Shown piece by piece: positions 655 to 45,207 of a stretch of DNA of 45,559 nucleotides; position 1 is the stretch's first letter; each line of letters begins with the position of its first letter. The position numbers and the translations under genes are program-made. Source of the DNA: a virus. The stretch lies in IMG/VR virus record IMGVR_UViG_3300025162_000078, positions 1 to 45,559 of that record; one strand, given 5' to 3'. The notes under the pieces are model-generated. The model worked only from the letters and a program-made list of their open reading frames with translations, did not search any database and was not told the DNA's origin.

Positions 655-2256
655 TTATTGTACTCTAAAATCTTGACCATCTATCTTTTTTTCTGGATCC
701 TCAGTAACTACTGCTCTTGATGTAAGGATCATGTTTGCTAATGATACAGCATTCTCTAATGCCACACGAACAACTTTTACAGGATCAATTATACCCTTAT
801 CTATTAGATTTACAAATGTTCATGACTCAAAATCATATCACATTCATTTTTGTTGTTTTAGTTTTTCTGTAATTACTCGATCTCCTGATTGTCATCCATT
901 ATCAACAATAATTTTCATAGGATATTGAAGAGCTTTTTGTAGGATATTATAAGCAATACCTAATTCACCTCCAGCAAATTGCTGTTCATTTATACCTTCA
1001 ATCAAACTAATGCCCTCGCCACCAATAACTCATTCTTGTAATGCAGATTTAGTAGCTTGTAAAGCATCTTCTATTTTTAATCTTTTTTGTGTTGTTTCTA
1101 TATCTGATGGATATCAAACTCTTATTGTAGCGATTCATCCATTAAGTTTTGCTAATCTAGCTTCATATTGTAATACATTCCATTGATCATCTTCTTTTTT
1201 GAGAGATTCTTGGATGCTATCAGTTATCTTTTTTATTTCTTCTTCATTTCTATTTCAACCAACAATAATTGTTGACATCCTTCATGATATAACCTGTTCA
1301 GATCTTCAGCAATGAGCTAATTCAGCCATATCAAAATCCAACCCAGTTTTATGTGAAACCATAACAGCTCCAGTTAATGCACAAACATCTCTAAAGAAAT
1401 TTTCTTTCAATGTTGCATAATGTGGAGCCTTTACAACACCAACATTCCAGATACCTTTATTTTTATTAAAAATAAGAGTAGCTAAAGCAACCGGATCAAT
1501 ATCATCAACAATAAGCAATATATCTTTATCTCCAGAATCCAACATTCAATCTAATACTTTTTTGATAGATGATAATGTATTCAATCTTTTATCTGTAACA
1601 AAAATATATGGATTAATTAATTCACATTGTTGTCTATTGTCATTATTAATCAAAGCGATAGATTCGATAGGAGAATCAAACTCCAATCATTTCTTCATCT
1701 CGATAGATAATCACATCTCTTTTGACTCTTGTGCCACAATAGTACCTTGTTTTCATACCATATCGTAAGCATCCGCAATAAGTTTTCCAACCTCTTTATC
1801 TTGTGCGGATATAGAAGCCACTTTAAAAATATCTTCTCTTCATTCCATCTGTACCGAATTTTTTTTAATATATTCTATCACAAAATTACAAATTTCTCAC
1901 ATACATTTTGATAATTTGAAGGGATTTACACCGTTATCAATATATTTCAATCATTCCTTAATTATTGAAGAAGCTAGAATAGTTGTTGTTGATGTTCAAT
2001 CACCAGCAACTCTGTTTGTTCTATCCGCAGCTTTCTTCAACATTAATGCACCAATATTTTTATATCTATCTTCAAAATCTATTGTTCTAACAATTGAAAC
2101 TCAATCATTAATTACATCTGGTTGAGTCCAGAGATTATCTAAAATAACATTATATCCATATGGTCCCATTGTTGTTGATACTAATTTTGAGATCTCCTCA
2201 ATTCCAGCAAATACACTTTCACGAGCTTGACGATCAAAGGTAATAACTTTTCACAT
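655..2256 (-). CDS. groEL: Chaperonin GroEL (60 kDa subunit)
   Basis: A 533-residue chaperonin that would form the ATP-driven folding ring with GroES. It aligns along its whole length with bacterial GroEL (548 residues): N-terminal [17 protein letters not shown], nucleotide-binding TMGPYG then [19 protein letters not shown] near residue 85, apical VVKAPHY, and equatorial [14 protein letters not shown] near the end. Glycines of GDGT, EGLK and the conserved LG in the apical domain are encoded by TGA, which fixes the genetic code. The C-terminus ends in basic and polar residues without the usual GGM tail. The start overlaps the groES stop as TAATG, so translation is probably coupled. It could serve folding of virion proteins. 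Confidence 0.95.
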
Positions 2257-5268: not shown

Positions 5269-5989
5269 CTTTTAATGGTTTATTATGTAAAAGTGTTATC
5301 TTATTAGGATTGAAACTTTTTATTTCATCATTCCATCTTTTTTGATTTAGATATGTTTCTGGATGAGGTTGAAATTGTTTATCAGAAAATTGATGAAGTC
5401 GATCAGGTAATGTATTTATTATTTTTTCTCTTTCCTCTGGTTTTAGTTTTTCCCATTTTTTCTCACAAGCATTTTTATCTCAAACTTTTCTGTTATATAA
5501 ATCCCGAAACGAAGTGAAGGGTATATTTATACTTTTCTCTTCTTTTCTTTCCTTTACTTTACTTTCCTTTACTTTTCTTTCCTTTACTTTACTTTCCTTT
5601 ACTTTACTTGTTATAAGTAACTTATAACTTTCCTGTTCTCATCGGCGTTTTTCCATTGCTTTCACCCCACCTATAGACTGTTTTATCTTTTTGTCATCTT
5701 TTAGTGCCATTCTTTTCAATAAACTTGGAGATCGAAAATGTTTATCGTCCTTAACTAGTAATTCTAGTTCAAATAAATAACTTATAAGTAACTTATCGAA
5801 ATTATATAAGTTACTTATAACTAAGATAGAATCTATGTCCAATTTATATCATGTTGCCTCACTTAAAATCTCTATAATTGCGAAATACTGTCAATATCAT
5901 TCTCGTCAATGATTTGCTCTTAATTTCATAATTCTTACATCATTTCTTGCATTACAATCATGTGAGAAATAGTTTGTATTATTCTTCAT
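5258..5989 (-). CDS. Replication protein, Lin1244/Lin1753 (DUF4373)-like
   Basis: A 243-residue protein. The N-terminus, NNTNYFSHDCNARNDVRIMKLR then HGREGYGQYFAIIEILSEA, is the hallmark of Lin1244/Lin1753-like domains (YF.HD.NAR.D.KI..L...G.EGYG.YW.IIE.L), winged-helix replication-organiser proteins found in phages and plasmids. The EGYG glycines are TGA codons. A low-complexity linker of four 5-residue repeats (KVKES/KVKER, near residues 129-148) is also typical. The C-terminal part, EKKWEKLKPEEREKIINTLP then PETYLNQKRW, resembles the DnaD-tail region that contacts a helicase loader. Palindromic repeats lie within the gene. Confidence 0.8.
5546..5605 (-). repeat. Four 15-bp purine-rich tandem repeats inside the replication gene
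   Basis: On the minus strand the 15-base unit AAAGTAAAGGAAAGW occurs four times in a row and encodes KVKES/KVKER. The strand is almost pure purine. It may be only a lysine-rich linker, or an easily melted element next to the palindromes at 5611-5818. Confidence 0.85.
5611..5818. repeat. Three copies of a palindrome (ATAAGTWACTTAT), candidate origin iterons
   Basis: Copies are at 5611-5627 (TTATAAGTAACTTATAA, perfect with one central base), 5784-5796 (ATAAGTAACTTAT) and 5806-5818 (ATAAGTTACTTAT). A further ACTTATAAGT palindrome overlaps the middle copy. All lie inside the Lin1244/Lin1753-like gene, as origins often lie within phage initiator genes. The origin role is inference. Confidence 0.55.
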
Positions 5990-6013
5990 GAAGGTTTTTC
6001 ATACAAAATAAAA

Positions 6014-6080
6014 GTGAAGTAGTCTGCCGTCCAAAGCTCACTACCTCACTTCAATTTTGGACGACAATTTAAGAGCTTTG
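6014..6080. terminator. Minus-strand terminator-like hairpin with competing alternative stems
   Basis: On the minus strand GTGAGGTAGT (6049-6040) pairs with ACTACTTCAC (6023-6014; one G-U) and is followed by TTTTATTTTG, a plausible intrinsic terminator between the 108-residue gene (stop 6125) and the replication gene (start 5989). Two other stems overlap it: CGTCCAAA (6028-6035) with TTTGGACG (6056-6063), and CAAAGCTC (6032-6039) with GAGCTTTG (6073-6080). They cannot all form together, which suggests attenuation. Confidence 0.6.
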
Positions 6081-6124
6081 TTTTAATTCATATATTCATT
6101 TATTTTTTATTTACAAGAGAATTT

Positions 6125-6451
6125 TTAATTAGTAAAATATCATAATTTTCTGAGTAGTCTTACGAATTTATCATTTACCCACTTATCTCTCCTCCAGAGT
6201 AATATTCATCCCAATAAACATACTGATCTTTGAACAATTCTTTTCTCTATATTAAAATTTATTTTGGTATTCTTTATATTTTTCATATGATTTATAATCT
6301 CCTGATCTGTAGATTTTATAGAAATATTAAGATCTTTTAATATATCGTTGGAATAATGACGTACATTGTTTGTTGTTCACATAAATCTGTTTTTATTTTT
6401 ATAAAAAGCTCCCATGGCGCTAACGATGAGAACTTCTAATTTCTTAGACAT
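6125..6451 (-). CDS. Small basic protein, unknown
   Basis: A 108-residue protein, ATG at 6451, TAA at 6125. It starts MSKKLEVLIVSAMGAFYKNK and is rich in Lys, Arg, Asn and Ile; near the end comes VCLLGGILLWRRDKWVNDKF. TGA encodes two of the glycines. The general look (short helices, basic surface) fits a DNA-binding helix-turn-helix protein but I see no convincing motif. It is the last gene before the terminator-like hairpins at 6014-6080. Confidence 0.6.
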
Positions 6452-6487
6452 CACTAGCTTAATTATTTTTTATTATATTACAATAGA

Positions 6488-6715
6488 TTATTTCTTCTGT
6501 ATTTTATCATCATAAACAAAAATATGTCATAGGTGGTTTCAGTCATCATCTTTTACTTGTTCCATATGTCATACCCTTTTCTTCTGTGGATCTTTCAGTT
6601 CGTAGTATTCTTCAATGAATCTTAATACATAAGCAGCATCCATAGTGCTTCTTCATTCTTTAACTTTCTCTCAGTCCAGCATATTTGCTTCAAAATGTTC
6701 TCTTATCTGTCCCAT
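6488..6715 (-). CDS. Small acidic protein, unknown
   Basis: A 75-residue protein, MGQIREHFEANMLDGEKVKE..., with acidic and His-rich composition (VGHMEQVKDDDGNHLGHIFVY). Four glycines are TGA codons, including those in HLGHIF and LDGEK. No family is recognised. It follows the 93-residue Cys protein by 9 bases in the same operon. Confidence 0.6.
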
Positions 6716-6724
6716 CTCGTATGA

Positions 6725-7006
6725 TTAAATGGTAAAACTATTGTGTTTTTTGTCATAATATTTTTTATTAGATATTTTTATTTTATCTCTATTTTTATTA
6801 TTCCATTCGGTATGATATTCTTTATTATTACCTCATTTTATATACTCTCTTTTTAATCATAATTCTCGTATACAATATAATCAACAATCAGGACACTTTC
6901 TTTGTCTATATCACTTACTAATAAGTTTATCCGCCCATTCACTTCTTGCTACATATCATTCAGGAATACATAATTTTATTTCATTGTGTTGACCACATTT
7001 CATCAT
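6725..7006 (-). CDS. Small zinc-finger-like protein, unknown
   Basis: A 93-residue protein with cysteine/histidine spacing MMKCGQHNEIKLCIP and RKCPDCGLYC, which would suit one zinc site, followed by a long Lys/Asn-rich tail. The glycine of CPDCG is TGA-encoded. Such HNH-less zinc proteins are common in phage early regions; function is unknown. Confidence 0.6.
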
Positions 7007-7033
7007 AGTCTAGATAAATAATATAAAATGCTT

Positions 7034-7534
7034 TTAGTCTAACTTACATCAACATCAATAACAATATCACATCTTGTTAGTACAATCTTTAGAATGCTTC
7101 TCACCATCCTTAGGAACGGTTGGCGATTTGATGTTAGTAAGGTCTGCTAGGAATTGCTCTACATAATTTTCTCATTCCCAATCTGGTAAACAGTTCTCCC
7201 ATTTCTTATATATTTCATCTATCTTATCGTTGGTCTTTGGGAGATTGGAGAGGTGCATCTTAACTATTAATTTTGCCTCTATTGGCAGTATATACTTGAT
7301 GCTTATTGGTGCAACTGGCTCAGCTTGTGCATCCAAATCTGCATATATGTCTTTAAGTTTTTTCTCAATCCATTCTCCATCTGCTTCTTTGCTTTCGGTG
7401 GTGGCTTCAAGGTGAGAAAGATTATTAGTAATAATTTGTCTTGCTAATTTTTTGTCTTCTTTATTTCTACTGAGCAATCAGTCCATATTAAGTCATTCCA
7501 TTATTTTCTCTATTAAGTCTTTGTTATTCATCAT
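7034..7534 (-). CDS. Early-region protein with C-terminal Cys cluster
   Basis: A 166-residue protein. The start ATG at 7534 overlaps the preceding stop (7524) by 11 bases, so coupling is likely. Most of it is charged and helical (MMNNKDLIEKIMEG... EADGEWIEKKLKDIYADLDA). The last 20 residues carry DCTNKMGYCYGCGCKLD, a Cys-rich knuckle in which the glycines are TGA. Without recoding, the frame would end before this zinc knuckle. No family is recognised. Confidence 0.65.
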
Positions 7535-15011: not shown

Positions 15012-17036
15012 CTATTTAATATATTCAGTTCTTGAACCATTAGTATCTCTTTGGTAGTGGAATCCAAACTGAGATAAACACATATCACCACCATAGGTAT
15101 CAGCGGTCAATGCTGAGTTTCTATATATTCTGAATGAGATAGTGTCGCCTAGTGCTAGTCCTGTTGCAGAGAAATCTCCATCAATATCGTCTACTCTTCT
15201 ACCTCGTGCTGTTATGTTGCTATATGTTCAAGATATAGTTACTGTCGATGAATACGTCTGGTTAGCTTTGATTATGGTGTAATCTAGCCATCGGACACCT
15301 GTTGTATTGGCTGTTGTTGTTCACATCCAATGAATATGTGGTGATAATATAGCTCCTGTACCCGTATACATATCGTGAGGTATCTCTACATTTCCATACA
15401 TCATTCTTGTGCTACCACCACCTGCTCAATCAAAACATCTAGTTTTGATGTTTGAGCCTGAGATATTAGTTAGTGTAGGTTTTTCACCTGCCGTATCGGT
15501 ATCTCGCATTTGTAGATTTTGGATATCGTCTCGTGCCAATCAAGATCCATATCTTCGTTCGAATCCGTTTGCATCGAATTTAGTGTAGTTACCTAAAGCA
15601 TAATTCCCAAACTGAGCTGTACCATCTACATGCAATAATGATTGCGGTCAAGTAGTTCATATTCATACATATCCATTATCCAATATAGTCATAACATTAT
15701 GTTCAGAATTTGTTGACGTACCGTTACCGATCTCAAAAATACTATTTGGTAGCCCTACGTTAAGTTTTCATATAGCGATAGAATATGATGCTGCTGATTT
15801 AGTAAAATATCATATAGATGTAGATTGGTTACCGTATGCCATAGCACCCAAACCTAAAGCCATTGATTCTAATCCTGTCGCAATAGATGTTTTACCTATA
15901 GAAATTGATTGCGCACCAAAAGCATATCATCCTCATATAGCCAAACTAGAATACCCACTTGCTATTGTTGGTTCTGCTCAAACTCAAGGTATTATCTCTT
16001 GTGTACTTCATAATGCTATAGAATATTCATTAGTAGCATACGCATAATTTCCTATAGCTATTCATCATGTTTTACTATTTCAATTATAATATCAAAGATT
16101 TATTCATACATATCACATATTTTTATTTTGTATTGTTCCACCACTATAAAATACTAATAACGCTCAACCAGTAATATATGTATTACCTGCTGAGTCCATA
16201 ACTGTATATCCAGTAGTGACGTTGATATTTCCTGAAACGGTTAGTGCTTGTGTTGGTGTTGATGTATTAATACCCATCTTATTTGTACTTAATACTGTTA
16301 TGAAATTAGATAGGTGTGTATTATCTGCACCGTTTCATAGTTCAAAAATAGTATTGTTAAGATGTAGATTATTTTTTCATATCGCTACTGGATTATAAGC
16401 ATTAGATGAGTGGGTATATAGATTATTACCCATAACCATTGAATTTGGTGCTTCAACATTATTTCGGTTTCAAAGATTTATAGAATTAGAGGCTGGAGTT
16501 TTATTATCTCCTCACAAACTATATGATGACATACCTTCTACTGTACTGTTATTACCCACGCAAAAAGCGAAATAACCTGGTGTACTACAGTTTCACATCG
16601 CTATGGATTGTATCCCAGTAGCTATACCATTTAGAAGTGCAATAGAATTATTTTCTGCTCTAGCTGCATCACCAATTGCCATCGCTCAGAAACCTGATGC
16701 TTTCGCTGATCTACCTACTTGGAAACCTGTAACATTAGCATAGAGAATACTACCTCCTGATAGATGTCGGTATTCTGTACCTGTCTGGTATCAACTCAAC
16801 GCTCAACCCGTAATAAATTGTGATAATGATCAATCGACAAGTTGTCCATATGATATAATTTTTCCTCCTGAATTTATATCCATAATCTTAGTACCTGTAT
16901 TTGTTCCATTATCTGTAACCTTTAATCATTGTACGATTATCTCTGATGGAGTAACCGATTTATATACCGCAAAAGATGTAGCAACAAAAGCTATCCCTGC
17001 AATAAATATTCATAATGATTTAAGAAACTTTTTCAT
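15012..17036 (-). CDS. YadA-like trimeric adhesin/fibre with signal-type N-terminus
   Basis: A 674-residue protein. The N-terminus MKKFLKSLGIFIAGIAFVAT is a basic start plus hydrophobic core, like a Sec signal or anchor. Two blocks of YadA-head repeats follow (IAIGNYAYATNEYSIALG, SISIGKTSIATGLESMALGL), each block closing with an IFEIGNG motif, and a C-terminal beta-rich domain (THPHIHW-like segment then a short end). Such repeats build trimeric beta-rolls. It is either a virion fibre with an odd leader or a protein shown on the infected cell. Many TGA glycines fall in repeat positions. It lies in the second fibre block. Confidence 0.8.
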
Positions 17037-17284: not shown

Positions 17285-20200
17285 TTACATTCCAACACTA
17301 AAGTATCTCTCATTTTGAACAACAACATCTTTGATTTCTAATGTATCAGTTCATGATATTACATTATTTTGAAACTCTATATGTGGTTGATATTTTGATG
17401 AATTATCTATAATTGCATCAGCTGATGAATAATCTATTGGACAAAATACGCCATTTATTACAACATATATATGTCACATAAATATAACTAATTCAATTGT
17501 TTTTACTCCTGTAATAAATTGTCCTAGAGCTAATCTTACGTTATTTATACCGTTTGATACATCTAAATTAATAATTCACATATCTATGTTATGCATATAT
17601 GATAAGAATATATGAGAGTTTCATGCCTCTATACCAAAATTATAGTCTGATTGTGATAATGCCATTGGATTACCCAACGCTCAACCAAGATTAAATTTTA
17701 GATATGTAAATCTTCTTACATCTATTCTAGATACATTATCTCGATCATAAACTACCTTTCATTCAGTAGTTACTTTCAAACAATCATAATTTATATTCAT
17801 CATATCGGTATCACCCCATTCCTCTATAGTTGTTAATGGTAATGTATCAACACTCTTTGCTCGTTCTTTATTCCATGAGTTCTGCATATAATCTATTGTT
17901 GTCATAAACCCAAAATTAGGTCTTCGTTCCCATATAGCATGTCCAGTTGTCATATCAGTAACTTGATATAATTGATGAGTAATAACATTGATCCATTGAT
18001 CTCATAAATGAAATGTTATTCATAATCATGCACTATCTACACTATCGTTTAAGAAAGTGGGGTTACTTGATGATGTATATGGTATTGTACTACCTCATCA
18101 TACAGAGAAAAATGGATTTATTTGTGTACCTTGTCATTGAATAGTTGTACCATCTACTATAACGGTATGTGCTATCCATTGTCCACCAAAATTAACTACT
18201 GGTTCTCCATTTACTCGCATAGAACTATCTCCTCGTGTTTCTAAGATACCTCCTGCACGAACTGTTGGTGGTTGTAAGAATACAGTTCCTCTAGCTTGTA
18301 TAAGCACTCATTGTTTTATCTCCATTCAGTCAGTTATATTACCTCTATATATATCGTATGTTTGTGGCATCATATCATCTCGGATGATAGATCTTGTTTG
18401 TATTATACAGTCATATATCTTTGAGCTGTGTAGAGTAACCCCCATTCATCAATTTAATGTTCAACCTATTATAGTAGCACTAGGTAATACTACTGCTCAT
18501 AATCATCAAGAGGTATCAACATTTTTTAACGACATACCTCAATATCATGTAAAATCTCATCCAAGTATTTTTCATCATTCCATCTCTATTTGGTTAGCTC
18601 CTACTGAAGCTGTTGCTCATAATACTCGACAATTTATCACACTTAATGAAATAGTATCTTGTACTCATAATGTATTCTTATTTTCTGTTAAAGTTATGGG
18701 ATATCCAGCATAATCTAAAGTTATCTGTATAGGAGAAAAATATATCATATCACCATTAACTATTGTTTGGCTATATCAATAATCTCTACCATCAGCTATT
18801 CATAAATTATGTAACATATCAGTAATAGCATATTTTGTGTTATTGTTATCATCACCTACTGATATATGTAAACTCTCTTGTATATTTATTCATTGTGCAT
18901 TGAGCGTAAAATATCATGATGTAGGCATTGTATTGAAAGTTATCTCGAATATTTGTGTTTGTCCAATGATTATAACTCATTTTATTCATGCATCCATATC
19001 TATGTTTGCTACACTAGCAAGTGTATATGTTCATGGAAATCCATATAATCAAACAATAAATGGATCTATATCTGTTCCTGTACCAGTTACTACAACATCA
19101 GGGAAATGAGAATTAATAACATTTTGTATAGATGTTGCTGTATCATTTCGGTTAAAAATGTATGTTTCTGCACCTATAAACATATTATATCAACCAGTTG
19201 TAGGGACATTGGTAAAGTAATATTCTAATATGCTTACCTTATATGGTTGTATCTCTGTTATTATTACACTTTCTGGTAATGCTGGAAGCAAAGAATTATC
19301 TAAAGCTATATCCATAATAGCTGTATCTTCTATAATATTTGATTTCTGTTTACCATTAGATTTACAATTATATGGTCCATTAAGAAACGAAACTAACGGT
19401 CATGATCATTTCAGTACATTAAATTCTGATATAGAATCAGTCAATGTTTGTGGTCATGAAAATCTTGTTACAAATCTATTGAACACCGATGTTGGTTGTG
19501 TCTGTACGTAAGAATCAGCATTAGCTATACTTTGGTATTGCTTACCTACTATCTCTGTTTCGTTATTATTAATAACAAGCTCGTTAGTTACTGATACTCC
19601 AGCTCCAGTTAAGTTAGTTAGCTCATCGATAGCTCCTTGAACATTTACTGCTGTAAGTAATCCTGTTATTGCATTATTGAAATAAGTGCTGTCTGACGCA
19701 TCTATTAAGACATCAGATATCTGACCATCGAAATTTAGAGCTTGGACAGGAGCTACTGTACTAGCATCTCTAACTATTTCAAGCAAAGAATTAAGTGTAG
19801 ACCCAATAGAGTAGACACAAGGAGTATCCATTAGTGCTCTTTGATACATCCTTATTTGAATATTTACACCATCTTCAACTCTTATAGGACAAGAAAAATA
19901 ACTTGCTCTTAATAAATCAAAAGAAGTATTGCCATTAGCTACATGAATACCAGGAATATTTTGGTCGTGAGGAATTATACTACAGTTTTCTCCAACATAA
20001 ACAGGAGTTTGTCTTGCTGTATAATAATAATCAGAAGTATTCCATATCATAAACAAAACATTCATAAATAATACAGGATGCTTGTCGAGAAATACTTTAT
20101 CATTAACTTGAACTTGAGTTATTCCATCCTGACCAACCAAGAATAATTTATCACAATTACTATAAGTTGTTCCAGTTCCTCCTAAATCATCAAATTGATG

Positions 20201-20536
20201 TCCACTCCCTTTTAACATAACCCATACTGGATTAGTTAAAGCTGTAATATTATTTGCTGCTTCAAATGTTGAATAAGGAACAGTTGAATCCCAGACTAGG
20301 ACTCCAGCTGCTGCACCTCATTGAGATTTAACTACGAGATCACCGTCAGCTGTACCAGCCTCATACCGATACTCTACTCCTGCGATGTTTACAGTAAGTC
20401 ATATATGTCTATATGGTACCGGGATCCCAGCATTCGCTGTAGCGACATCAGCCCAGGGTGCTAGGTTGTCGAAATATTTATCATCCAATGGTTTTGGTGA
20501 ATGGTTTGAGATTGAGTCGTTTACTATTATTGCCAT
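17285..20536 (-). CDS. Large tail fibre / receptor-binding protein
   Basis: A 1,083-residue fibre. The N-terminus reads MAIIVNDSISNHSPKPLDDK, then DVATANAGIPVPYRHIGLTV (residues 34-53), a fibre entry domain seen in other phages. From about residue 106 a 254-residue stretch has no TGA at all and contains GVSVTNELVINNNETEIVGK. From 19453 to the end TGA is frequent, and the C-terminus (FTYLKFNLGWALG... IELVIFMWHIYVVINGVF) looks like a concanavalin/LamG-type beta-sandwich. The join of unlike codon use suggests a mosaic gene. All segments share one frame. Confidence 0.8.
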
Positions 20537-37273: not shown

Positions 37274-37873
37274 CTATATATTTTTCTTCATCCATTCAAT
37301 ATCGTTTTTGTATCTATTAGATACATCTTTACCTGTAGCTGCTTTATAAGCAGCTCTTACAGATTCAATTGTTTCTTCTACAAGAACTGATGGAGTTTCA
37401 GCTAATCTTTCATCAATAGCTTCACTATTTTTAATCTCTTCTACCGCTTCAGTAGAAGAAGGATCAGGTAATGCTGAAACATCAGGTTCATCTGATCCTA
37501 AATCTTCAGGTTCATCAGTTTTAATACCATTAGATACAATATCTAATTGTCATTCTATAGTTTCCAATCATTCGATTTGATTCTTTATGGTATCATATGT
37601 TTCTTTTGTTTCATCAAATTTATCTATCATGGGTATCTGTACTATTGTTTCTCTAAATATTCTTAGATAATTAGATTTATTATCAGGATCTTCTTCCATA
37701 TTATCATGATACTCTTTTTTAGCCTCTTCTATCTTATCTAAAACTATATTCAATTGATAGCTTCTCATTCTCTGATTCTTTTCTAATTCAGCTCTACCAG
37801 GATCCATAGCCTTTAATTTAAGATAATCTTCATAATCCATAAATCATGCCTGTTGTGATATTCAAGTAACCAT
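37274..37873 (-). CDS. Head-associated acidic protein, unknown
   Basis: A 199-residue protein beginning MVTGISQQAGFMDYEDYLKL at ATG 37873; the internal ATG at 37840 is the alternative if the first is not used. The middle is coiled and acidic (KNQRMRSYQLNIVLDKIEEA); the last 90 residues are low in complexity (GSDEPDVSALPDPSSTEAVE) and end in a basic helix (NRYKNDIEWMKKNI). It is the first gene after the capsid protein, with an intervening hairpin, and may link head and connector. Confidence 0.65.
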
Positions 37874-37960: not shown

Positions 37961-39082
37961 TTAAGGGGTTGTTCCTTTTGAACCAACTACACCTGTTTCA
38001 GCATAGTAATGATCTACACCATAGTTAGCACGAACATCAACTACATAGATATCGTTATCTTGCTTCTGATAGTTTTTCATCAAAGGAGCATAGTTTACGA
38101 AACATTTCAATGATTGTTGTTTGTCGATAACAAATGGATTCATTACGAACCAGTTTGTTTGCGCACCAAGTGTTGAACCGTAACCGTAAGCTGTTTCAGC
38201 TACCAAATCACCTAGACATGGTATTTCAACAATTTCTACTAAATTACCTTCAAAAAAGAATTGATTAATCAAGTTAGCATTGTTTGCAGTTCCTGCATAC
38301 ATTCCAGCTTGTTTACCAAAAGTGTTTAATATTTGTCTTGCTGTTACAGCGAGATTAGTACCAACCATCAATTGATAAAATGTTCCAGCACCTTGTTTAA
38401 CGAATTTTCCATTCTGTAATTTAACACCTGTTTTCAAGATATTAATAGCTTCTTGGAGAGAAACATTAGAAAGTGCTTTGTTTGGTGTTGAAAGGATATT
38501 ACTAAATGTTCCACCTGTACTCAAAATAGGATGAGCAGCAGAGAAAAGTGGTTGAAGATTAGGAGTTGCTGATCCTGGACCATAACTTGCTGTTACAGCG
38601 AAACCTTGTGTGAACAATGCAATATTTTCAATGTTAGATGTTTCTAATCTACCCAATTGAAGATCTTTTGAATCCTGAATAAGTTGAACATATTCCTGTT
38701 GAACATCACCTGAAGCACCAGTAAGAGTTTGTTGATCTCTAAGATATTCACCCATAAGGTAAGTAGTTTCGATCTTAGCTCCATAGTTCTTAGTAAGATA
38801 ACCTTTCTTGTTACCATATTCAACTGTTCTTTTTTGTTTGTTTGCTCCATCAGCAAGAAGAGGAAGTTCCTTTCCAGCGATTCTGTATCCATATTTTTGT
38901 GATACGGAGATTGTTTTTTCTGAGCGGATTCTCATTGCTCCTTGTATTCTCGCATATTCGTCATAAGCGATAGATATATCGTAATCATTAATAATTCCTA
39001 CTAATGAATCGTCAAGTAATGGAGATGATCCAAATGCTCCTACGGCTACGGTTATACCATTATTAAATACTGTTCTACCCAT
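37961..39082 (-). CDS. Major capsid protein (HK97-fold, Mu gpT-like)
   Basis: A 373-residue protein in the standard capsid position. It starts MGRTVFNNGITVAVGAFGSS; the centre has NLQPLFSAAHPILSTGGTFS and LQEAINILKTGVKLQNGKFV, a pattern seen in Mu gpT-like and related coat proteins (KPLFS..HP....T.SN....LS...L..A). It ends with DIYVVDVRANYGVDHYYAET. All of about 38 glycines use GGN codons and none TGA, unlike nearly all other genes. The leader (TTTTATTTTTATTACAACC then ATTATC) is shared with the gene before it. Confidence 0.88.
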   Translation of the reverse strand: MGRTVFNNGITVAVGAFGSSPLLDDSLVGIINDYDISIAYDEYARIQGAMRIRSEKTISVSQKYGYRIAGKELPLLADGANKQKRTVEYGNKKGYLTKNYGAKIETTYLMGEYLRDQQTLTGASGDVQQEYVQLIQDSKDLQLGRLETSNIENIALFTQGFAVTASYGPGSATPNLQPLFSAAHPILSTGGTFSNILSTPNKALSNVSLQEAINILKTGVKLQNGKFVKQGAGTFYQLMVGTNLAVTARQILNTFGKQAGMYAGTANNANLINQFFFEGNLVEIVEIPCLGDLVAETAYGYGSTLGAQTNWFVMNPFVIDKQQSLKCFVNYAPLMKNYQKQDNDIYVVDVRANYGVDHYYAETGVVGSKGTTP

Positions 39083-39111
39083 GATAATGGTTGTAATAAA
39101 AATAAAAAAGT
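39083..39111 (-). promoter_or_regulatory. Conserved AT-rich leader of the capsid gene
   Basis: The bases before the capsid ATG (TTTTATTTTTATTACAACC then ATTATC) nearly match those before the adjacent 232-residue head gene (39815-39845: TTTTATTCTTATTACAATC then TATTATC). A shorter version (TTTATTTCTTTATATATTAT) precedes the portal ATG. No Shine-Dalgarno site is present. It may be a promoter or a translation enhancer. Confidence 0.5.
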
Positions 39112-39115
39112 TTTA

Positions 39116-39814
39116 TTATACGTTAGCAATGGAAAATTCCATACCAAGTGCATCTTCACAAAGAAGTTGACCAGTTGATGAACTTTGTGTAAGAAGATTT
39201 ACATATTGTGTATCTGAAAGATCAAAATAAGCATGTCGATCAGCTATGTCCAATACTAATAGAGAATAAGTCATAACTGGAGGTGTTGATCCACCAATTA
39301 CAATATTACTAATAACTACTGTACCGTTATTACCTGTTTTAGGAAGAATAGTTACTGCGTGTGTTCCAGAAATAGTAAATGTAGCTAATGCAGCAAATTG
39401 TGTATTTAATTGTAGAATTAATGCAGCCATAGTACCTGCATGATCTGAAGAAAACAATACTTGTGTCATTACAACACCGTTTACTTTAAGATCTATTGTA
39501 TTTGTAGCAACAAAAAAACCAACAACTGTTAATAGTTGTCCAATTCCTTCAATTTTGAAAGTATCTGACTTCAAAAGAGATGTTGGTACATAATTTACTT
39601 TTTCATGTTCTATTGTTTCATTAGAAGATGAAAAAACTTTTTCTGTAGAAGAAGCTCCTATAATAGAATCTCCAGCTCCAGCGATATCAATGAAACCACT
39701 AGCGTCTTTCAAAAACATACCTGATTGGCAGTCTAATGAATTTACCGCTACAGCTTCTACTCTACCAAGACCCAAATATGAGTCCTTAGCAGCTTTAATT
39801 CGTGTGAAAGCCAT
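39116..39814 (-). CDS. Head protein (decoration/minor capsid candidate)
   Basis: A 232-residue beta-rich protein, MAFTRIKAAKDSYLGLGRVE..., located between scaffold and capsid genes. It contains EGIGQLLTVVGFFVATNTID and a segment resembling an Ig-like or decoration fold (LATFTISGTHAVTILPKTGN). It has no TGA glycine codon despite many glycines, like the capsid gene, which suggests very high expression. It may be a decoration protein, or a second coat component. No exact family is recognised. Confidence 0.7.
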   Translation of the reverse strand: MAFTRIKAAKDSYLGLGRVEAVAVNSLDCQSGMFLKDASGFIDIAGAGDSIIGASSTEKVFSSSNETIEHEKVNYVPTSLLKSDTFKIEGIGQLLTVVGFFVATNTIDLKVNGVVMTQVLFSSDHAGTMAALILQLNTQFAALATFTISGTHAVTILPKTGNNGTVVISNIVIGGSTPPVMTYSLLVLDIADRHAYFDLSDTQYVNLLTQSSSTGQLLCEDALGMEFSIANV

Positions 39815-39842: not shown

Positions 39843-40523
39843 TTAATTTTTTGGTTTTGCTGTGATTACTCATTGCGATTCTAAGAAACTCATAGTGTTT
39901 GGATCATTAGGTTTATATTCATCTGAATTTCATGATTTTGATGATCATCCAGTAGGTATAGCATTATGTTCCAATATAATAGTTTCTTTGTTTGATGAGA
40001 ACTTTTTTCCCATAGAGAATGCAACTCCAACCATTGCTTGTTTCAATTCCTCTTTTCAAAGAGTCCTATCTCCGGTTAATGCTGTAAGTTTTTCACTAAA
40101 CACTGTCATTTCATCAGTAGAGAATCATAGAGAAGAAATAAAATCGTTTTTTAATTTATCGCTTTCTTTTTTCATCTCATATGCCGTCATTTGAATATTG
40201 AAGTCATTTGCTTTAGGTGGCAATTGCTTACCAGCTTTGAGATCTTCAATACTATATTCTCAACCATGATGTTTAACTCGTGCTTCAGCTGTTTTAGGAT
40301 CTTTTTTATAAAGTTCTTGAAGATAATTAGGATCCTTGTCGATGTTTTTAGTTTCTTCTAGGATCTTGTCTGTAAGCGTATCTACTCATTTCTGAGAAGC
40401 AGATTGGAGTTTTTTGTACTCTTCTTCTTGCTTAATTGAAAACGCTTTAAGTTGTTCCTCTCTCTCTTCTAGATTTAAGTCTGGTGATAGACTGTCTAAA
40501 AATTCCTGAGTTGATTGTGGCAT
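39843..40523 (-). CDS. Scaffold-like protein
   Basis: A 226-residue, highly charged helical protein, MPQSTQEFLDSLSPDLNLEE..., with SIKQEEEYKKLQSASQKGVD and MKKESDKLKNDFISSLGFST, a composition typical of phage scaffolds, lying directly before the capsid genes. The C-terminus is flexible (GGSSKSGNSDEYKPN). ATG at 40523 starts a typical acidic helix; the frame is open further upstream. One HxG segment (KHHGGEYSIEDLKAG) may be a protease-processing or assembly site. No catalytic motif for a head protease is seen. Confidence 0.68.
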
Positions 40524-40557
40524 TAATAAATTTGGTAAGAATGTAAAAGGTTTAAGT

Positions 40558-40585
40558 ATTATATACTGCCGATTACAATTATCGG
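40558..40585 (-). promoter_or_regulatory. Possible promoter with operator-like palindrome before the head operon
   Basis: On the minus strand TATAAT (40563-40558) stands 35 bases before the scaffold ATG. Just upstream is an inverted repeat CCGAT-TACAATT-ATCGG (40569-40585) covering the spacer and -35 zone. There is no good -35 hexamer and the DNA is AT-rich, so the -10 match is weak evidence; the palindrome is the stronger part. Confidence 0.35.
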
Positions 40586-40659
40586 AATAATACACTATTC
40601 GTAAAACAATTCAATACTACTTTACAATTTTCAATTGCTATTTATAGTTTCATATATTT

Positions 40660-41083: not shown

Positions 41084-43003
41084 TTACTTTCATCCAATAA
41101 ATGGTGCAGGTTTAGCTTCGGGAACAGCTTGTGGTTGAGTCTGTTGTGTATTCGTAGGAGGAACCTGTTGATTAGTTTGTTCATTAGGAATATTAGTAGG
41201 AGCTAAAGAATTACCCATGATTGCCATAGAAAGATCTTGTTCTTGTCTAATACTATCATCTATCTCTGACTTTTTTGTTTTAGCAACAAGTGCCATATCA
41301 AAATCATATAATTGTTTGAATCTTGCTATTATAGATGATGGATTCATATCCCTCTTTATTTCATCAGTTATATTAATTCACATAGATGCAAATACTTGTG
41401 ATAATATATTCAAATTAGATATAGCTTGTGTAAACGCATTTTGTTGTGTAGTTGATGAAAATCTTGTTGATGGAGTAACAACCTTCACTAAGAACTCTCA
41501 TTTACACATAGATTTATCTAAATCAAAATATCATATATCACCAAACGATTCTTTAAATACTTTAATATCTTCACCATTTTTATCTTTTTTATCCTCTATC
41601 TTATTATCTCTAACTTTTATAATAAGATTAGGAAATGTTTCGATAGATATATCTTGTTCTTTACCATCTACAGTAATTTTCTTTTTTTCTGTTTTTTTCT
41701 CTAATGTTACAGCATACTTTGTGAGATTTATAGCTGTTTTAGTTAAGATATCATCATAAAATATATTTAATGATTCATCAATAGTTCTATCTCTTATTTG
41801 TTGATGTTCCTCCATGATCTGTATCTCACCTAGAGTTGTTTTAGGTGATGAATATGGCGCTCTCATATTTTCTCATACCTCTACATTCATGAGATCATCG
41901 ATGATAGATATTACAGCAGACATATCAGCTATCTTTGTTTGCATCTGTAATGGTTGTACCATTCCAGCAGAAGCATTAGTTTCCCAAATATTTATACCTG
42001 ATGATACCTTTCATTTTACTTCAGTATTTTGTGGAACAATCATATTGATTCATGCTGACATCTTAGAAGCATCCAATATATCTTGTAATATAGATTTTTT
42101 ATATCATTTTAATCATCTAATTCTCTTAGGTATACCATCACCATAAATAGAATTATTGTTAGGGAAATGCTGACATGCTGATACTGGTAAATCACCATTA
42201 TGATAATATTTTCATGAATACAAACAAGTAGATCTATTGAGAATAACATCTCGATCTCATGTTATTCTATTGTATTTTTGTCGGATAATACATTGATTAG
42301 GATAAGAATTATATACTCAATATATAGGATCACTTACAGCATATGGTTTTATATCATTAATATCTACTCATTCAACAAAATTCCATCTCTCTTTAGCAGC
42401 CTCAACAGTCAATTGTTCTTCAATAATACAATCTTCAGCTTTTCTATAATCCCATTGATTCATGGCTTGATCATCGAACCATGATGTATATATTGATTGA
42501 TTTATTGGTGTATATTTATATTCAATCCTTTTAATAGCAGTCATATCATCAGTAAATATACCATCAAATACCTCTTTTGGTTCATATCTAACATACGAAT
42601 CATATCTTATACCATTATACATAACCATGGTACCATATTGTCATTTATCATGTATTCCTGCAGATTTTTGTTGATAAAATCATTCTCTATCTAGATAATC
42701 CTGTAATGCAAAATAGATAGGTTGTGTTTGTGATACATCATTATTATCTTGTCATCATATCACATCGAAATCTATTGCACCAGCATATTTACCTTTATTT
42801 ATCTCATTCAATACTTTTTCTACAGAAATATTAATCATAAGTTTACCCTTTGCATTAGTTTGAACTTTAGCTTCTGTTTGTATATCTGAATAATGCCATT
42901 CTGATTCCCAATCAGATCTAGCTGAATCCATTTTTAGAAACCTAGCAAGTGTTTTCCTTACACTTTCTACTTTAGCATCATCGGAAATTCTCTTATTTGC
43001 CAT
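41084..43003 (-). CDS. Portal protein
   Basis: A 639-residue portal that forms the dodecameric DNA gate and docks the terminase. It follows terL directly and has the expected size. The N-terminus is MANKRISDDAKVESVRKTLA then LARFLKMDSARSDWESEWHY; the middle carries repeated Tyr/Asp/Asn-rich beta strands and the long helix region EEHQQIRDRTIDESLNIFYD typical of portal stems. The C-terminus is Gln/Pro-rich (QVPPTNTQQTQPQAVPEAKP). Identification rests on gene order, length and this layout. TGA supplies many glycines. Confidence 0.8.
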
Positions 43004-43040: not shown

Positions 43041-44660
43041 TTAATTGGACATAGGTTTTCAAGTGATGGGATCTTCTATAACCATATTTCCGTTGGACTT
43101 ATTATAATTATTATTTCTCTGTTGTTCATTATATGCTGATTTTGCCATAGGAAGTCAAGTAATAGGATCATATACTGTTTCCTCTTTTTCTCATGGAGCT
43201 TTATTACGTATTCATGCCATAAATTGTATTATACTTTGTGCATCACAATCAACAATATCGTCATGTTTTAGGTTAGGAAACTGATAATATTGATCTAATA
43301 TCTTTTTTTGTTGTTCTGTAGGTAAATCAATATTATAATACAATTTATTTTGTGATCGAAACGGTTCAAGATAATCTCTTATCCTAGCATTTTTATCTCA
43401 TTTAGGTCGATATTCATAAATCGTAAACATCTGATTCCTTTTTATCATCTCATCCATAAAATCTCTATAGAATTTTGACTGATCTTTATTTATTTTACTC
43501 ATCTCTATAGAAAAGAACGGTCTATTAAATCATTTCATCTCCCACTTAGCAGCTAATGCAAACATATATTGTCTAGCAATTGAGGGAGCTTGTGTTTCAG
43601 CAAATATATCGAAGAAATAAATATCACGAGTCTGTTTATGTTGTCATACAACCCTTACAACTACATCATCTGATTTAATATTAGTAGAAAATGCAGGATC
43701 AACAAAAATACCGAGTTCTATATCGGATTTATTCAATCATCAAACCTTCTCAAAATCAGATTCATGAAATGATCTTTCATTTCCTGGCTTGAATATAGCT
43801 CCAGTCATCATGATAGGATCCTGTTGAAACAAAGCATTCCATACCTTAGGTGTTCTTATTTCTCTTTCTTTGAAAAAATAATCAGGTCATCGTTTCCCTG
43901 GTCGTATTATTGGATATCATTCATCATCTATAGCTTTGATAACTAATTTATAGAATTTATCTCATCATTGTTTTTCTTGTTCCTCTAATTTACCTATCAA
44001 ATCATTAATATTCCAACGAGTCATAGTTACAACTATAGCAGAATCTTCAGTTTGTTTACGAGTAGATAATGTTGAATCAAACCAATCCCATGTTTTTTCT
44101 TGAATCGTTATACTTGCCGCTTCCTCTGCATTTTTTACACAATCATCAATAAATAGAAAATTTCCTCAAAGTCAAGTTAATGCTCATCAAACTCCACATG
44201 AATACATACCACCACGCTGAGTAGTTTCTCGATGTGTTTGAGTATTTTTATCTGATGCCATATCAAATTTTGGGAATATATTTTTATATCTTTTTGATTG
44301 GATAATATCTCTTGATTTACGAGCAAAATCCGAAGCTAGATTAGCATCATACGATGCTAGAACAAATTTAGCTGCGGGATCACGACCAACTATCCATGTT
44401 GGTAACATTATTCATCATAATGTGCTCTTTCATAATCTTGGTGGACATGAAACCATTAATCTTTTTATTTCTCATTTTGCAACAGCTTCATAAACCTGAA
44501 TTAGTTGTTCATGAACATTTCTCATTTTTTGAGTAGCTATACATTGATATTTCGAATCAATATATTGGCAATATGTTTTCAAATCCAACCTAGAAAGTTT
44601 TCTTCTCAATAGTTCTTCCTCTATCACTAGCGCCTGATCATTAGTATGATCAAGGATCAT
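43041..44660 (-). CDS. terL: Terminase large subunit
   Basis: A 539-residue packaging motor ATPase-nuclease. Walker A at residues 71-80 is SCPPRLGKST, with Gly77 encoded by TGA. ATPGDPAAK-like segment is replaced here by GRDPAAKFVLASYDANLASD. Walker B is NFLFIDDCVKNAEEA near 165-180, the C-motif region is TMTRWNINDLIGKLEEQEKQ, and the RNase H-type nuclease begins ELGIFVDPAFSTN near 316. It opens one base after the HNH gene stop (44662). TGA-glycines at the P-loop and in the IMLPTW lead are strong evidence for code 25. Confidence 0.93.
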
Positions 44661-44661
44661 G

Positions 44662-45207
44662 TTATATATGTTTTCGAATAAAACCTCAACAAGATTTTCT
44701 TTTTCACAAACAACATTTTGATATACTTTGATTAGCTATTTGTAATGACCTTTGAATATCCATAATACTTCACCATGATTTAATAAAATTTCATTCTAAA
44801 TCATATTGATTAGTTATTTTACTAAATGGATTTTCTTTGCCTATCATAATCCTTCTTCATAATTCACGATATGAATGTTTTTGGTTATCAGAATAAGATA
44901 ATCGCTCCAAATTATCTTTTCAATCCATATTATACCCATCATTTGACCTATTTCAATCACGATGATTAATTTGTGGTAAATTTTTTTTATTTATAATAAA
45001 TGCTTGTGCTTTGATACGACAAATTCTAAAAGTATAATGTTTTCAATCTTTGTAAATTCAAATTATATTATATCAATCTTTATCTTTCTGTATTTTTAAT
45101 AAAGATTCTTTTCTTTTTTTACGGTAAAATAATGATTTTATTCTACCAAAATTACTAACTTGATAAAGTCATTCAAATCAAAGAATATTTCTTCGTATTT
45201 CCTGCAT
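44662..45207 (-). CDS. NUMOD4-HNH-NUMOD1 homing endonuclease
   Basis: A 181-residue free-standing homing endonuclease inserted between terS and terL. NUMOD4 is at residues 9-26 (LGFEGLYQVSNFGRIKSL), the HNH core is QAFIINKKNLPQINHRDGNR then NLERLSYSDNQKHS (residues 68-112), and a NUMOD1-like helix follows (YDLEGNFIKSWGSIMDIQR), ending KSCGGFIRKHI. Nearly every glycine is TGA, so it has resided in this code for long. The start is 8 bases inside the gap after terS, and the stop is one base before terL. Confidence 0.88.

Follow-up and report, generated by a model that had tools for sequence, protein, structure and literature searches.

Absence of the reassigned UGA codon from a probable phage major capsid gene and its upstream neighbour points to UGA as a disfavoured glycine codon

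Here we describe a 45,559-base virus record (the window, by which we mean the whole stretch of DNA analysed) whose genes lie on the minus strand and whose open reading frames are sensible only when UGA is read as glycine (table 25). Read in this code, the GroEL, GroES and terminase large subunit (TerL) proteins of the window match known profiles. The identity of TerL (43041..44660; phrog_38, 5.6e-76) is certain; its UGA codons fall on invariant glycine columns, including the P-loop glycine, and glycine is the commonest residue of standard-code TerLs at the window UGA codons (25/60). The gene order from TerL onwards is that of a phage head module: a likely portal gene (41084..43003), two further genes, a 232-aa gene (39116..39814) and, directly downstream of it, a probable major capsid gene of 373 aa (37961..39082). 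This pair is flanked upstream by a gene at 39843..40595, which by its position may encode a scaffold or protease, and downstream by a gene at 37274..37873. The portal matches a protein of a related phage contig, L105 (phmmer, 206 bits), which itself has a weak SU10_portal match under the cut-off of that family. At the other end of the window lie adjacent GroEL and GroES genes (655-2546), with GroEL at 655..2256 (PF00118, 7.5e-56; phrog_5725, 8e-113). All of these features are on the minus strand, and no tRNA genes were found in the window.

The gene at 37961-39082 is probably the major capsid gene, judging by gene order, size and the parallel layout of another phage contig, L106, and not by homology. 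Searches with Pfam, PHROGs, tblastn and hhalign, as well as fold prediction, left both this protein and that of 39116-39814 without an identification, and AlphaFold models of the two, made with no alignments, were uninformative (pLDDT 29 and 37). No relatives of the window capsid were found in viral contigs, the phage collection, Pfam or PHROGs, and its profile comparison with phrog_267-type capsids gave a probability of 0.1%. One weak genome match to it, in L024 on the strand opposite a YchF-like GTPase gene, was discarded as chance. A scan with the window portal returned no relative, nor did a GroEL pattern search. The TerL of L106 is 43% identical to a query set headed by the window TerL and scores 582 bits against the TerL of L105. 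In L106 a phrog_4523-type capsid gene (6378-7322; 1/23 glycines encoded by UGA) is directly preceded by a 138-aa gene (5929-6342; 0/11, the lowest in the contig), and because this same UGA-free gene stands directly before the capsid gene, the analogy suggests that 39116-39814 may encode a decoration or cement protein.

The window phage also appears to use a second reassignment, giving a double code in which UGA is glycine and CGA is tryptophan. The TerL genes of the window (codons 144, 253 and 257) and of L106 (L106:1518-3008, with CGG as well as CGA) carry CGA/CGG at alignment columns where relatives have tryptophan. Reading CGA as tryptophan raises the match of the window TerL by 10-19 bits, that of 44662-45207 by 16 bits and that of the L106 TerL by 29-38 bits, and lowers the scores of the L105 and L052 TerLs, which read CGA as arginine. 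A metallophosphatase match also fell by 5 bits, on a single CGA at the GHxH motif. Shulgina and Eddy predicted CGA/CGG=Trp in Absconditabacteria (PMC8629427), and the CGA=Trp signal makes a host of Absconditabacteria type probable for the window.

UGA encodes most of the glycines in the window, 611 of 1120 in 49 genes (54.6%), yet it is absent from both the capsid gene (0/38; 15 GGA, 23 GGT) and its 232-residue neighbour (0/19; 7 GGA, 12 GGT), as the original prediction had stated in noting that these two genes use only GGN for glycine. Set against 611/1063 in the rest of the window, zero UGA among 57 glycines has a hypergeometric probability of 5e-21. When glycine codons were shuffled among genes 20,000 times, no gene with at least 19 glycines came out UGA-free and the biggest UGA-free gene had 11; the one further UGA-free gene of the window has only 3. 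Head genes at large are not UGA-free, since TerL (21/32) and portal (17/35) are rich in UGA; the flanking genes upstream (7/13) and downstream (4/8) also use it freely, and GroEL has 20/46. Base composition as the sole cause is rejected: gene GC does correlate with UGA fraction in the window (rho -0.48) and the head region is among its GC-richer parts, but a logistic model with GC alone expects 46% UGA in 37961-39082 and 50% in 39116-39814, with probabilities of zero of 7e-11 and 2e-6. General GC variation, raised at the outset as a possible cause, thus does not explain the glycine-codon pattern.

The two genes are also distinguished at other amino acids, with codon choice for Ile, Leu, Asn, Asp and Glu shifted relative to the rest of the window (ATA.23 vs.56, AAC.42 vs.17, CTT.44 vs.17, TTA.21 vs.50, GAA 1.0 vs.76). 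On codon scales derived from host EF-Tu with glycine codons left out, they rank first and second among 30 window genes of at least 150 aa for host-preferred codons on every host scale tried, with z of 2.2-3.4 on three EF-Tu-derived scales, and their codon optimality is at the level of the 98th-99th percentile of host genes. GGC and GGG are absent from their 57 glycine codons. Since the shift extends to other amino acids and the pair tops scales that exclude glycine, we consider their avoidance of UGA to be part of a general high-expression codon signature. On two of the host scales the phage GroEL (655..2256) is third for optimality. In the remaining window genes UGA fraction is weakly related to optimality (rho -0.40, p 0.03), and the relation disappears once the model includes GC. 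The tail region has two long glycine-rich genes (15012-17036, 33% UGA; 17285-20536, 39% UGA), one of them with YadA head repeats, in which UGA is scarce although host-preferred codons are not favoured, so that further causes must be at work.

The same depletion was found in related phages. L030, a phage contig inside a UGA=Gly genome, has a phrog_267-type capsid, and a scan with that capsid led to L045-L054, while L105, L106 and L109 were found through TerL; one candidate, G258:C27, was dropped as it contained mostly host genes. The resulting comparison set comprised 13 further phage contigs with an intact capsid gene (10 non-redundant), in which, as in the host loci, genes were called as same-strand or codon-scored. 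Where tested, their capsids belong to phrog_267/283 or phrog_4523, with no detectable kinship to the window capsid. UGA makes up 0-54% of glycine codons in these capsid genes vs 21-86% in the other genes of the contigs (p < 0.01 for each contig; Mantel-Haenszel odds ratio 0.09 over the non-redundant contigs). The capsid gene is the lowest in UGA among genes with at least 10 glycines in 12/13 contigs and second in L106, and it ranks first for host-preferred non-glycine codons in 11/13. The capsids of L109, L054, L048 and L049 retain 44-54% UGA, up to 13/24 glycines. UGA-rich capsids in related phages would have spoken against the original prediction; the capsid is never the UGA-rich gene. From these 13 contigs it follows that the depletion is general, graded and independent of any one capsid family.

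Cellular genes follow the same rule. We reached host genomes through a GyrB motif in which TGA encodes both glycines, and chose a second group of 13 that carry CGA at a tryptophan conserved in IleRS. EF-Tu contains less UGA than the surrounding genes in 30/30 informative genomes (17 + 13), although single comparisons are not all significant; L086, which has almost no UGA and is uninformative, was left out of this count. Ribosomal proteins are mildly depleted (Mantel-Haenszel odds ratio 0.55; 6/7 genomes, with the effect absent in one). The complete host-type genome G039, a single 1.18-Mb contig, encodes 31% of its glycines with UGA overall, and, with expression level taken from gene identity, its UGA counts are 0/37 in EF-Tu, 0/40 in enolase, 1/76 in a PPDK-like gene, 2/60 in EF-G, 4/47 in GroEL and 5/51 in DnaK; when its genes are ranked by codon optimality, UGA amounts to 16% in the top decile and 25-39% in the others. 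A short secreted host protein (L038:9966-10631) has 2/23 UGA in a UGA-rich genome and is perhaps an abundant pilin or surface protein. G039 has one tRNA gene each with anticodons UCC, GCC and UCA, the last of which (G039:C1:1080583-1080656) is labelled SeC by ARAGORN and is presumably tRNA-Gly(UCA) in this code. All 13 host genomes tested have a single release-factor match, which falls below the prfB cut-off, and competition by RF2 is consequently not the likely cost of UGA. The tRNA and release-factor results apply to this host group.

The data establish that UGA is depleted, that this recurs across phages and goes together with other codons associated with expression, and that it occurs in hosts as well. 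The explanation that we consider very probable, reasoning from codon usage, is that UGA, though fully reassigned, is a disfavoured glycine codon and that the pattern reflects translational selection on the most-expressed genes. Genes that load ribosomes most would be selected for GGU and GGA, read by the tRNA-Gly species with GCC and UCC anticodons: in cells these would be EF-Tu, EF-G and enolase, with ribosomal proteins mildly affected, and in phages the major capsid gene, joined in the window by its upstream neighbour. High expression of these two genes is itself what their codons lead us to infer. The likely cost would be elongation speed or supply at the lone tRNA-Gly(UCA) during massive translation of one mRNA late in infection; that the penalty is slow or limiting decoding, and not another, is a further part of this account that we infer. 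The original prediction had offered two interpretations. Its suggestion that UGA decoding is slow or limiting and that these are the most abundant proteins gains support from the same depletion in other phage capsids and in host EF-Tu, enolase and EF-G, travelling with host-preferred codons, whereas its suggestion that head genes are kept free to translate under any decoder state does not hold, as discussed below.

Selection for accuracy is an improbable alternative, but one with some foundation. If UGA were sometimes misread, for example as tryptophan, a lattice of hundreds of copies would be intolerant of misincorporation; proteomics of a BD1-5 bacterium gave possible low-level misreading of UGA, in the form of single peptides with Trp, Ala, Asp and Lys (PMC4032931), and ambiguity of U34 wobble between UGA and UGG has been noted (PMC8629427). 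Conserved glycines should then be spared UGA, but they are not in the TerL, portal, capsid, adaptor and tail families (Mantel-Haenszel odds ratio 1.27), which argues for efficiency over accuracy, and EF-Tu and enolase are equally depleted though they form no lattice.

It is distinctly unlikely that the head cassette came recently from a phage infecting a standard-code host and has yet to accrue UGA codons. No relative of the window capsid was found through which its history could be traced, and secreted Bacteroidetes-like host genes that look acquired in G039 and L041 do have no UGA, so that a zero count alone is no proof of selection. These UGA-free secreted proteins, perhaps acquired from other bacteria, lie at L041:5590-7068 and 18387-20000 and at G039:C1 1157846-1160401 and 391069-392832. 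However, such genes mostly retain GGC/GGG and sit at the 32nd-92nd percentile of optimality, far from the head genes with neither codon and a rank at the 98th-99th, and 13 contigs with other capsids are likewise depleted, often incompletely.

We give very little credence to the idea that the head genes are UGA-free so as to be produced before or without a UGA decoder, or in a standard-code host. Both genes are indeed wholly free of UGA, and phages compatible with both codes have been described (PMC10746230), but nearly all other window genes, including TerL, portal and other head genes, require UGA=Gly, and most related capsids retain some UGA, being depleted and not free. The window has no tRNA gene, and the 13 host genomes have no RF2 at prfB level. 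Nor does the window fit two other kinds of phage: a dual-code-compatible phage has no in-frame UGA and the window has 611, and a code-switching recoded phage is not indicated, as the window lacks a tRNA, L030 sits in a UGA=Gly genome and host genes themselves use UGA, the window's own host being known only indirectly. Finally, local GC, mutational bias or slow ageing of conserved genes is a scarcely credible source of the low UGA, for beyond the failure of the GC model, TerL is UGA-rich despite its many conserved columns and conserved glycines are not spared.

UGA=Gly bacteria are mostly uncultured, and the efficiency of a reassigned stop codon has been hard to judge in them. The codons of the most-expressed host and phage genes offer a readout from sequence alone, and suggest that UGA remains an inferior choice even where no other glycine codon is used as often. 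On a practical level, UGA depletion can point to abundant virion proteins where homology is no guide, as with the orphan capsid of the window. A bolder reading, which we advance tentatively and at slightly less than even confidence, is that a single limiting tRNA-Gly(UCA) turns UGA density into a brake across the whole genome, one from which the genes that have to be made fastest are exempted and of which phage capsid genes are the clearest natural record. A testable prediction follows for phages that carry tRNA-Gly(UCA): if the brake reading is true, they should be freed from the constraint and their capsids should be richer in UGA.

Our literature search, which covered part of the key papers, returned no report of UGA depletion in highly expressed genes of UGA=Gly bacteria or phages, but parallels exist elsewhere. 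Phage structural genes are known to use codons preferred by highly expressed host genes (Lucks et al. 2008, PMC2266997), and likewise the window head genes are top for host-preferred codons; the codons avoided there were ordinary sense codons, however, while here it is a reassigned stop, and one that outnumbers every other glycine codon in the genome. In Blastocrithidia (PMC12153298) and in a ciliate (PMC10553269), highly expressed genes contain fewer reassigned codons, which has been read as a sign of a possible translational burden. Those are eukaryote nuclear codes (UAR=Glu and UGA=Trp; UAA/UAG to Lys/Glu), unlike UGA=Gly in bacteria apparently without RF2 and in their phages. Dense in-frame UGA and a code shared with the host are described for code-25 phages of Gracilibacteria and Absconditabacteria (Liu et al. 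2023, PMC10746230; RSA-ATP1, PMC13059738), in passages where we found no per-gene analysis of UGA. RSA-ATP1 has its own tRNA-Gly(UCA) (PMC13059738), as might be expected if UGA decoding limits. Our results contradict the suggestion of Liu et al. (PMC10746230) that dense TGA represents codon optimisation, since in phages and hosts alike the trend in the most-expressed genes is the opposite. In the stop-codon-recoded phages of standard-code hosts studied by Borges et al., as summarised in PMC10746230, recoded codons lie in late structural and lysis genes and time their expression. On that summary the window is like those phages in having a reassigned stop codon with a gene-specific distribution, and unlike them in that its capsid gene is the one without the recoded codon.
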